DNA of 42,668 nucleotides from Candidatus Hadarchaeum yellowstonense (GTDB taxonomy: Archaea; Hadarchaeota; Hadarchaeia; Hadarchaeales; Hadarchaeaceae): the NCBI GenBank assembly GCA_001515205.2, contig LQMQ01000047.1, positions 1 through 42,668 on the forward strand, in the 5' to 3' direction. The notes beneath the pieces are model-generated. The model worked only from the letters and a program-made list of their open reading frames with translations. It was not told where the DNA came from and searched no databases. Below are positions 5,924 through 14,315 of this stretch, one piece after another. The position numbers and the translations under genes were made by a program. Each line of letters starts with the position of its first letter. Position 1 is the first letter of the stretch.

Positions 5924-6418
5924 ATGGTGTTGAAGTTCCGGAAGGTTGTGGTCGGGGGGACGTTTGATTTTCTCCACAACGGTCATCTCGCGATCATCTC
6001 CAAGGCATACGAGGTTGGCGAGAGGGTGACCATAGGCATCTGCTCGGACGAGATGCAGCAGCTGCTCATGAAGGACTCGGCGGGCATTCAGCCCCTGGCC
6101 ATCAGGTTGTGGCGGCTCCTCAACGAGCTGCACAGCCGGGGCTGGCTGGGGCGCACGGAGATAAACATCCTCTCGGATCCCTATGGCACCGCGGTCACCG
6201 ACAGAAACATCGATGCAATTGTCGTCAGCCCGGAGACCAGGGCCAGGGCCGAGGAGATAAACAGGATCAGGATCTCAAGGGGCATGAATCCCCTGGAAAT
6301 AGTGGAGATTCCCTTTGTGCTGGCTGAGGATGGTCGGCCCATCTCGTCGATTAGAATCCGCTACGGTGAGATAGATCTCCACGGCAAAAAACTGAACCAT
6401 TCCAAGACTGAAATTTGA
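5924..6418 (+). CDS. coaD: Archaeal phosphopantetheine adenylyltransferase
   Basis: Transfers AMP to 4'-phosphopantetheine to make dephospho-CoA. 164 residues of the nucleotidyltransferase superfamily: the HxGH signature is in VVVGGTFDFLHNGHLAI (His18 and His21), and the second signature is ISSIRIR near the C-terminus. The archaeal/eukaryotic PPAT branch is suggested by GTFDFLHNGH and by GICSDEM. A GAGGT site overlapping the proA stop supports the ATG at 5924. It is followed by coaBC and pantoate kinase, which act in the same pathway, so the functional call is well supported by context. Confidence 0.92.
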   Translation: MVLKFRKVVVGGTFDFLHNGHLAIISKAYEVGERVTIGICSDEMQQLLMKDSAGIQPLAIRLWRLLNELHSRGWLGRTEINILSDPYGTAVTDRNIDAIVVSPETRARAEEINRIRISRGMNPLEIVEIPFVLAEDGRPISSIRIRYGEIDLHGKKLNHSKTEI

Positions 6419-11736: not shown

Positions 11737-12006
11737 ATGGGAGTCGCTGAGGACATCAACTGGCTGAAAGCCGACGAGGACGGTGTCGGGAAGGTCTTCA
11801 CCATTATCGCGAGCAAAGGGGGTCTAAAGCTGCGCGAGCTTAAGGAGCTTTACGGCTCCGAGGATTGGTGGCCGGTGAAGGCGTACGTCAGCTCCTTGAT
11901 CGCCAGAGGCCTGGTGGCGGAAATGGAGGGCATTTACCGGCTGACCGAAGATGGTAAAAAGGTCTTTGAAAGTTTCAAGGCGATGGAGGTCGTCAAGGCG
12001 ATCTAG
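11737..12006 (+). CDS. Small winged-helix domain protein
   Basis: 89 residues that fit one winged helix-turn-helix domain: IIASKGGLKLRELKELYG (helices 1-2), WWPVKAYVSSLIARGLV (recognition helix) and AEMEGIYRLTEDGKKVFESF (wing and last helix). The pattern LIARGLV...YRLTEDGKKV is typical of archaeal wHTH proteins. Start at ATG with GGTGAT upstream. It closely follows ABCE1 and overlaps the LSm gene tail to tail by four bases. It could be a DNA-binding regulator or a ribosome/RNA-associated wHTH; the sequence does not decide. Confidence 0.75.
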   Translation: MGVAEDINWLKADEDGVGKVFTIIASKGGLKLRELKELYGSEDWWPVKAYVSSLIARGLVAEMEGIYRLTEDGKKVFESFKAMEVVKAI

Positions 12007-12248
12007 GTCGAGATATCCGAGATGTTCCCTCCCTTCAACAGGACAAATTTGTGCTTTATCGGCCCCTTCTCCGTGAGCTCCTCGGTTTCCTCCAGGATGA
12101 TGTTCATGTGTTCGTCGTAGTTTGTCAGCCTGCCACGGAACCTTCGACCGTCCTTGGCGGTGACGGTGATTACTGTGTTGAGAAATTTCTCCATTCCGGC
12201 AATGGTCACAGTTTCCTGAGACTCTGCGTCCTCTTCCATAGAACCCAT
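12003..12248 (-). CDS. LSm (Sm-like archaeal protein)
   Basis: Sm-fold RNA-binding protein, expected to form a ring that binds U-rich RNA. The Sm1 motif is TVITVTAKDGRRFRGRLTNYDEHMNIIL and the Sm2 motif is KFVLLKGGNISDIS. About 81 residues from ATG 12248; an ATG at 12239 is also possible, and the ORF-track GTG at 12266 would place the start close to the TATA-like AATATTTTA. A short acidic N-terminal extension (MEEDAESQE) precedes the fold, which is unusual but not unique. It is divergent from radA across a large inverted repeat. Confidence 0.9.
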   Translation of the reverse strand: MGSMEEDAESQETVTIAGMEKFLNTVITVTAKDGRRFRGRLTNYDEHMNIILEETEELTEKGPIKHKFVLLKGGNISDIST

Positions 12249-12252
12249 CAAA

Positions 12253-12332
12253 TAATGAGGAGGCACCGCCTAAAATATTGTTCTCTGGGCAGTTTGCCGG
12301 GAGAGCAATACTTTCGGCGACCCCCCTCATCA
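12253..12332. repeat. About 80 bp imperfect inverted repeat between LSm and radA
   Basis: Two arms of roughly 39 bases face each other around a three-base centre (GTT at 12292-12294). The inner 16 bases pair almost completely (TATTGTTCTCTGGGCA with TGCCGGGAGAGCAATA: one mismatch and two G-T pairs). Similarity continues outward with about three-quarters identity and one gap, through TTTAGGCGG versus TTTCGGCGA to CCTCAT on both sides. The left arm contains the likely LSm TATA box. Confidence 0.75.
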
Positions 12333-12384
12333 AAAAACGCTTGAATCACGAGGGCGAGGGATTGAACAAAGAGGGATGATGGCA

Positions 12385-13317
12385 ATGGTTGAACTTGAAG
12401 AACTTGAGGGAGTTGGCCCGGCGATTGCCGAGAAGCTGCGCTCAGCGGGTTATGACTCCATCGAAAGCATCGCGGTAGCCACTGCGGGCGATCTGATGGA
12501 AGCGGCCGAGATTGGGCTGAGGGTGGCAATGAAGGTGATAAATTCGGCGCGGGAGGCGTCGAAGATGGGCTATGAAAAGGCCCTAGAGGTCCTGGAAAGG
12601 CGAAAGCACCTCGGCCGCATCACCACCGGCAGCCAGCTTCTGGACAAAATAATTGGCGGAGGAATCGAGACGCAGGGGGTGACCGAGTTCTTTGGCGAGT
12701 TCGGTTCGGGGAAATCTCAGATTGCCCACCAGCTCTGCGTTAACGTGCAGCTTCCGCCGGAGCAGGGTGGGCTCAGCGGTAAGGCGGTTTACATAGACAC
12801 GGAGAACACCTTCAGGCCGGAGAGGATCTCGCAGATGGCGATGGCTCTGGGAGAGGATCCCCAGAAAATCCTTGACGGCATCTACGTGGCCAGGGCACAC
12901 ACGACTGACCACCAGATGCTTCTGGCTGAAAAGGCTGCCGAGATCGCCAAGAATGACGGCGTCAGGCTGCTGGTGATTGATTCGTTGACGGCGCTCTTCC
13001 GCACCGAGTACTGCGGGAGAGGGGCTCTGGCGGAGCGACAGCAAAAGCTGGGTCGCCACATAGCGGAGCTTCACAAGCTGGCGGAGCTCAACGACATGGC
13101 TGTCTTCGTAACCAATCAGGTACAGGCCAGGCCGGATGTTTTCTTCGGAGATCCTACAAAGCCTGTGGGCGGCCACGTGCTGGGTCACGCAGTCACCGCC
13201 CGCGTGTACCTCAGAAAAGGCAAGGCCAACATGCGAACGGCGCAGCTGGTAGATCATCCCGGGCTGCCACCTGAGAGCGCGACGTTTCAGATAACTGAGG
13301 CCGGCATACGGGACTGA
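12385..13317 (+). CDS. radA: DNA repair and recombination protein RadA
   Basis: Archaeal RecA/Rad51-type recombinase that forms filaments on single-stranded DNA for strand exchange. About 310 residues from ATG 12385. The N-terminal helix-hairpin-helix domain is [18 protein letters not shown]. The ATPase core has Walker [10 protein letters not shown], Walker [13 protein letters not shown], and the L2/NQV region [13 protein letters not shown]; the subunit-interface phenylalanine is in [10 protein letters not shown]. Three in-frame ATGs lie close together (12376, 12379, 12385); GGGATGAT before 12385 favours the last. No intein is present. It is divergent from LSm across an inverted repeat. Confidence 0.96.
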
Positions 13318-13460: not shown

Positions 13461-14315
13461 TTGGGGTTCAAGCTGGAGGCGCAGGGGCTGGAGATTGAGC
13501 TTGGCATCAAGCCCGCCGGCGGAGTCTACATTCACGAGGAGATAATCCCGCGGATGCTGGATCAGCTAATTTTGGATATCAAGCAAAACAACGAGGTCAG
13601 GAACCCGCTTATCGTGGACCGGAACACCTCCGTGGTGCTTGACGGCATGCATCGGGTGGCCGCCCTCCAGAGGCTGGGCTGTCGCTATCTGCCCGTCTGC
13701 CTGGTCGACTACAGCAGCCCGAGGATTCAGGTCGGCTGCTGGTACCGCGTGATTCAGGACTGGGTCAGTGATTCGTTTCTGCTGGAAATTTTTCGATCCC
13801 TGGGACTGAGCATTGAACCCTCCTCATTTGAAGCGGCCCTCAAGGAACTTGAAGCCAGGAAAGCCACGGCGGCGCTGTTCACGATGAAGAGCTGCTATCT
13901 GGTCAGGGCGCCGAAGACCGACATCGTGGAGAGCTACAGGTGGATCAAACGCTTCGAAGCCGCCGCCGAGGGAGAGGGCCTGCACATAAGCTATGAAATG
14001 GAGCATGATGCCGAGTGGCAGGTCAGGTCGGGGAAAGCCCCCGCGGCCCTGCTAGTTCCCCGGACCACCAAGGAGGAGGTTGTTCAGACTGCCTTGTCCG
14101 GAGAAGTTTTCACGCACAAGACGACTCGGCACATCCTGCCCGCCCGGCCAGTCAACGTCAATGTTCCTCTCAGCTGGCTGACGGGGGAAAAACCAATGGA
14201 AGAGGTGGAGAGGCTTTTGGTGGAATATCTCTCAGGACGGAAGGTGGTGAGGCTTTCCAAGGGCAGTGTCTTTGACGGTAGGCGTTACGACGAGGAACTT
14301 CTGGTTTTCAGGTGA
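13461..14315 (+). CDS. ParB-fold protein, probable SerK-like free serine kinase
   Basis: 284 residues. The N-terminal 100 match the ParB/sulfiredoxin-like fold as seen in the archaeal ADP-dependent serine kinase SerK: YIHEEIIPRMLDQLILDI, NPLIVDRNTSVVLDGMHRV (Asp61, His64, Arg65) and LGCRYLPVCLVDYSSPRI. SerK phosphorylates free serine to O-phosphoserine for cysteine synthesis. A C-terminal region of about 180 residues, including HKTTRHILPARPVNVNVPL, follows. The start is uncertain: TTG 13461 has GGTGAT close upstream, and the frame stays open further upstream without a start codon. It ends in a GTGA overlap with an ApgM/homoserine-kinase-like gene, which suggests shared amino acid metabolism. 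A ParB DNA-binding role is less likely because no HTH is seen. Confidence 0.7.
   Translation: MGFKLEAQGLEIELGIKPAGGVYIHEEIIPRMLDQLILDIKQNNEVRNPLIVDRNTSVVLDGMHRVAALQRLGCRYLPVCLVDYSSPRIQVGCWYRVIQDWVSDSFLLEIFRSLGLSIEPSSFEAALKELEARKATAALFTMKSCYLVRAPKTDIVESYRWIKRFEAAAEGEGLHISYEMEHDAEWQVRSGKAPAALLVPRTTKEEVVQTALSGEVFTHKTTRHILPARPVNVNVPLSWLTGEKPMEEVERLLVEYLSGRKVVRLSKGSVFDGRRYDEELLVFR

Follow-up and report, generated by a model that had tools for sequence, protein, structure and literature searches.

An imperfect palindrome of about 80 bp (positions 12253 to 12332) lies between the genes for an Sm-like (LSm) protein and the recombinase RadA in Candidatus Hadarchaeum yellowstonense, and raises the question whether it has a function as a palindrome or whether the sequences that make up its arms do. 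The window, that is, the whole stretch of DNA that was analyzed, comprises 42,668 nucleotides of contig LQMQ01000047.1. The palindrome, which a first-pass annotation had pointed out, is real: the region 12243-12342 folds at -41.6 kcal/mol on the plus strand and -47.4 kcal/mol on the minus strand (z -6.2 on both), none of 200 dinucleotide shuffles folded as stably (0/200), and after correction for GC content the two 90-nt segments that begin at 12241 and 12256 exceed all others of the 42.7 kb in stability, whichever strand is folded. Ungapped self-complementarity around the centre at 12293 amounts to 48/81, the highest of all odd centres in the window, but other places score up to 44-46, so that the palindrome stands out only modestly by this measure alone. 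It was not reported by a plain inverted-repeat search of the window, because its arms pair with bulges. The palindrome region matched no RNA family in Rfam, and a search for an intrinsic terminator found none.

The folding is confined to this genome among the relatives compared. In the sister species (locus L066), whose RadA is 95% identical, most of the right arm is kept and so are 19 nt around the LSm TATA box in the left arm, but the spacer and the outer left arm have changed, and the region folds no better than its shuffles (z -0.7). Eight further Hadarchaeota relatives also lack the hairpin at this locus (z -1.7 to +0.7). Kept pairing, which the first-pass annotation had proposed to look for, is thus not seen, since all nine relatives fold like shuffles and the comparison with the sister species gave no pattern of compensatory changes. 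Nine of the ten relatives read have LSm and radA side by side in divergent orientation, and because relatives with this gene pair have no hairpin we judge the palindrome to be local, by the reasoning of the first-pass annotation itself. Blastn of the 100-bp palindrome region against the home genome, a 1.23-Mb draft, gave three further matches with E < 0.1, all to right-arm bases 64-93, and a fourth (E 1.3) to a different part of the region, and none of the further matches has an inverted partner. With no hairpin in relatives and no other palindromic copy in the genome, the palindrome fails the check that the first-pass annotation had set for it; a hairpin RNA finds no footing in either the relatives or Rfam, and a small mobile element is contradicted by the lack of palindromic copies. 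Mobile elements did not create the palindrome, but in relatives they carry the sequence of one of its arms, as described below.

The two arms can be assigned separately. The right arm (12305 to 12329, plus strand) contains GCAATACTTTCGGCGACCCCCCTCA, a replication-recombination box upstream of radA (12376 to 13317, plus strand; Pfam Rad51, E 4e-89) that is matched by the profile at E 2e-5. The probable radA TATA box (CTTGAA; 12340 to 12345, plus strand) starts 32 nt past the start of the box, a spacing also seen in relatives, and its function is suggested by its sequence and place. The left arm, as had been proposed, holds the probable LSm TATA box, TAAAATATT at 12271-12279 (AATATTTTA when read on the minus strand), whose distance to the start of the LSm gene (12003 to 12266, minus strand; Pfam LSM, E 2e-15) is normal; the probable ATG of this gene, at 12239, was picked by comparison with L066. 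The palindrome is real, but as a palindrome it has no conserved function: one of its arms is an important element, and the left arm is the core promoter of LSm. It is best explained as a lineage-specific coincidence or mutational elaboration between the box and the core promoter of the divergent LSm gene, rather than as a hairpin RNA, and may have arisen by chance or through templated correction of an imperfect palindrome. The operator suggested earlier holds for the right arm alone, a conserved regulatory site common to other replication and repair genes, but not for the palindrome. Of the suggested conjunction of an Sm protein with a recombinase, the link to the recombinase is real; the Sm protein seems to be a neighbour in divergent orientation that has no part in a mechanism.

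The box is about 20 bp long (consensus AWTACTTTCGGYGACCYCYC) and precedes radA in each of the ten related Hadarchaeota that were read. Its core ACTTTC is present in the window and in 9/10 of the related radA promoters, the remaining one (L068) having ATTTTC. The Hadarchaeal radA consensus is AWTACTTTCGG[TC]GACC[CT]C[TC]C, followed by a C-rich run, A-rich BRE-like bases and CTTAAA. When the home genome was scanned by sequence search and by reading the stretches around the matches, three further copies of the box were found, upstream of a primase-like gene, nurA-herA and mcm-orc1. The exact 13-mer TTTCGGCGACCCC occurs four times in this genome, at the radA, primase-like, nurA-herA and mcm sites. 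About 3 kb past the start of mcm comes orc1, followed by what reads as a gene for the small subunit of polD. The primase-like protein has weak sequence matches only (primase small subunit, LigD prim-pol); its structural model is moderately confident (pLDDT 66), and the PDB fold matches listed, none of which reaches E 0.001, are primases or prim-pol domains. In four genomes an ORB-like sequence (CTCCAGTGGAAATGAAGGGGT) and an AT-rich stretch lie a few bases upstream of the box of this gene (L006, about 6015-6075, corresponding to G000:C2:20,510-20,575; also L049, L259, and L272), which are likely to be a replication origin. The herA-like gene after nurA (L007, 5939-7873) seems to bear an intein, judging from its translation.

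Because the profile had been trained partly on sites selected by pattern, a matrix was also built from the ten other Hadarchaeal radA promoters alone, with the window excluded. This radA-only matrix finds the box as the best match in the window (24.7, the next being 12.7) and puts it in first place by a wide margin at each of the four home loci, which shows that the gene set does not come from circular reasoning. The distance to the core promoter is nearly constant: a TATA box begins 32 or 30 nt from the start of the box in 11/12 radA, 11/11 nurA, 9/10 primase, and 2/2 RPA promoters, and in 22/30 promoters of homing endonucleases, compared with 2% of control positions. At the MCM and IS sites a TATA box at the standard spacing of 30-32 nt is mostly missing. 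In many promoters (L067, L070, L236, L256, L274, and others) TTTATAAA abuts the box on its 5' side. The opposite strand of the box reads GAAAGTAA, which resembles a BRE and would suit a bidirectional promoter; in the case of radA, LSm would be the gene served.

The profile search detected the box at E < 1 in all 22 genomes of the family, in G021 only at E 0.07, and also in family f2, and did not find it in the four f3 genomes searched. The genes after 126 distinct box sites encode MCM (17), RadA (12), NurA (11), primase (10), RPA (2), topoisomerase I (1), and Hel308 (1), counts that overstate the number of events because related genomes are not independent. The rest consists of about 30 LAGLIDADG-type genes, about 20 IS200/IS605 or other transposon genes and a mixed remainder; downstream genes were called by Pfam on representatives only, and some of the LAGLIDADG-type genes by clustering or by matches below the cut-off. 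The hel308 of G018 (L055) also seems to bear an intein. Most f1 and f2 genomes searched have two radA paralogues, one with the box and one behind another gene and without it. The f3 radA reads examined are only of this second kind, without the box, and the gene ahead of them reads as an OB-fold gene.

The box also precedes mobile genes. In eight f1 genomes a box lies at most 1.6 kb upstream on the same strand of 15/18 free-standing LAGLIDADG_3 genes and of 10/17 TnpB genes (two of the box-positive TnpB matches look like near-identical contig ends in G011), where about 1% would be expected for each. For LAGLIDADG domains within long frames (inteins) the count is 1/10. In IS elements the box is often found just inside the end hairpin. 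The only TnpB (Cas12f1-like_TNB) match at threshold in the home genome, at 1527-1718 of the window (plus strand), is without a box, and the strict box pattern had 0 matches in the viral contigs searched.

Outside the Hadarchaeota, TACTTTC occurs at most 110 bp upstream of radA at 16/62 loci from other archaea (0.4 expected), chiefly in Thermoplasmatota and Methanomicrobiales. An extended Thermoplasmatota motif, TACTTTCAGTCTCC, occurs in four genomes at radA and nowhere else, and in a fifth genome once, without a clear gene. Since its matches are essentially at radA alone, no wider regulon is visible in Thermoplasmatota with this pattern.

From the sequences compared here, the box is most likely an upstream activator site of a replication and recombination regulon that mobile elements have joined, and the palindrome would be incidental to it. 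A function of the palindrome itself, as a hairpin RNA or as an operator of two inverted sites for the joint control of LSm and radA, seems quite improbable. The strong fold and the identity of the left-arm TATA region in the sister species would fit such a function, and with the full matrix the left arm ranks second among the box matches of the window (11.3, followed by 7.5), a likeness that is not independent evidence because the palindrome itself implies it. However, neither invariant C of ACTTTC is present in the left arm, which falls outside the top three with the radA-only matrix, the hairpin is absent in the sister species and the eight other relatives, and Rfam offers no match. The fixed place upstream of BRE and TATA, together with the occurrence of some unrelated genes behind the box, could also indicate that Hadarchaeota use the box as a general element of strong promoters, with no regulator specific to it. 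We regard this as unlikely, as the home genome has four strong sites only, all before replication or recombination genes, and a specific sequence of about 20 bp goes far beyond what a core promoter needs.

The position of the box just inside the end hairpin of many IS copies would suit a transposon end, spread by IS200/IS605 elements and left behind at host genes. Such an origin is already disfavoured, since host sites have no IS end hairpin and do have the TATA box at 32 nt that most IS sites lack, and the box occupies the orthologous radA position across f1 and f2. In addition, the ACTTTC core upstream of radA extends to other phyla and the home genome has box genes, yet its TnpB match is without a box, which together make the transposon-end origin very improbable.

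For the activator site, the functional element would be the right arm, the box of about 20 bp just upstream of the radA BRE/TATA, which most likely binds a putative transcription factor. The predicted factor is probably an activator, because the box precedes the core promoter and keeps an almost constant distance of 30-32 bp to TATA. It would coordinate radA, mcm-orc1, nurA-herA and the primase-like gene, in relatives also RPA, topoisomerase I and hel308, and may couple these genes to DNA damage or to the cell cycle. Against this reading stand the MCM and IS sites, most of which lack TATA at the standard spacing, and the Thermoplasmatota, where the extended motif marks little else than radA. 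In several Hadarchaeota free-standing LAGLIDADG genes and IS200/IS605 elements have the same box, and they would therefore be expressed with recombination and replication proteins, at the time when homing or ssDNA transposition could succeed; we infer from this a benefit to the mobile elements. If this is true, homing endonucleases and TnpB under a host recombination promoter would be selfish nucleases timed to the repair machinery that they need. To our knowledge, no general DNA-damage or S-phase regulator has been established for most archaea. A long, specific and readily recognised box before mcm, primase, nurA-herA, radA, and hel308 offers a direct handle for finding the regulator.

A related element has been described in Halobacterium, where TTTCACTTTCA is found upstream of TATA in four UV-B-induced genes (radA1, top6B, vng17, and vng280); other haloarchaea and Methanospirillum have sequences like it, and a transposase gene has a near-match (Boubriak et al., 2008; PMC2556686). 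The Hadarchaeal box, too, has ACTTTC as its core and precedes TATA at radA and further genes (PMC2556686), and its presence at mobile genes resembles the near-match at the transposase gene. However, it is longer, differs downstream of the core (GGYGACCYCYC), and has no internal TTTCA repeat; the haloarchaeal 11-mer with this repeat is not matched, the Hadarchaeal consensus being AWTACTTTCGGYGACC. The Hadarchaeal box also covers mcm, primase, nurA-herA, and hel308, and in relatives homing endonucleases and TnpB. It ties the UV motif of Halobacterium radA1 to a wider archaeal element. In Sulfolobus, Orc1-2 binds ANTTTC, the six-base Sulfolobales DNA-damage response element in the promoters of DNA-damage genes (PMC9738581). 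ACTTTC fits ANTTTC, and there too a DNA-damage gene set has the element in its promoters, but it comprises six bases compared to about 20 bp for the Hadarchaeal box.

Most Hadarchaeota genomes have two Orc1/Cdc6 genes, the second of which is without a box upstream and is present in the box-less f3. Orc1/Cdc6-B, considered as box regulator, showed no co-variation with the box and is less favoured as the box-binding factor. A small winged-helix gene (11737 to 12006, plus strand; HTH_45/Sso10a-like, with a weak Pfam HTH_45 match and an Sso10a match) is syntenic with LSm-radA in 9/10 Hadarchaeal loci (families f1 and f2) and has only a distant homologue in f3, so that we consider it a candidate regulator and nothing beyond that. 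It is absent from the radA-neighbour position in other phyla.

Bacterial LexA/SOS boxes are a common operator before recombination and replication genes, and mobile elements are tied to the same signal. In contrast to these, the promoter here is an archaeal BRE/TATA promoter, and the Hadarchaeal box is asymmetric and upstream of the core promoter, which suggests activation rather than repression. Tentatively, and with somewhat less than even confidence, we propose an SOS-like regulon in which one factor, perhaps the winged-helix protein of the LSm-radA locus, would act through the box to switch genes of replication, resection and strand exchange. LAGLIDADG and TnpB/IS200 elements would have acquired the box repeatedly, so that their nucleases act when recombination is available, and the whole may descend from an ACTTTC-type damage element common to Thermoplasmatota, methanogens and haloarchaea. 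Downstream of radA, the window (13461-14315, plus strand) encodes a relative of the archaeal ADP-dependent serine kinase SerK, which scores below the curated cut-off.
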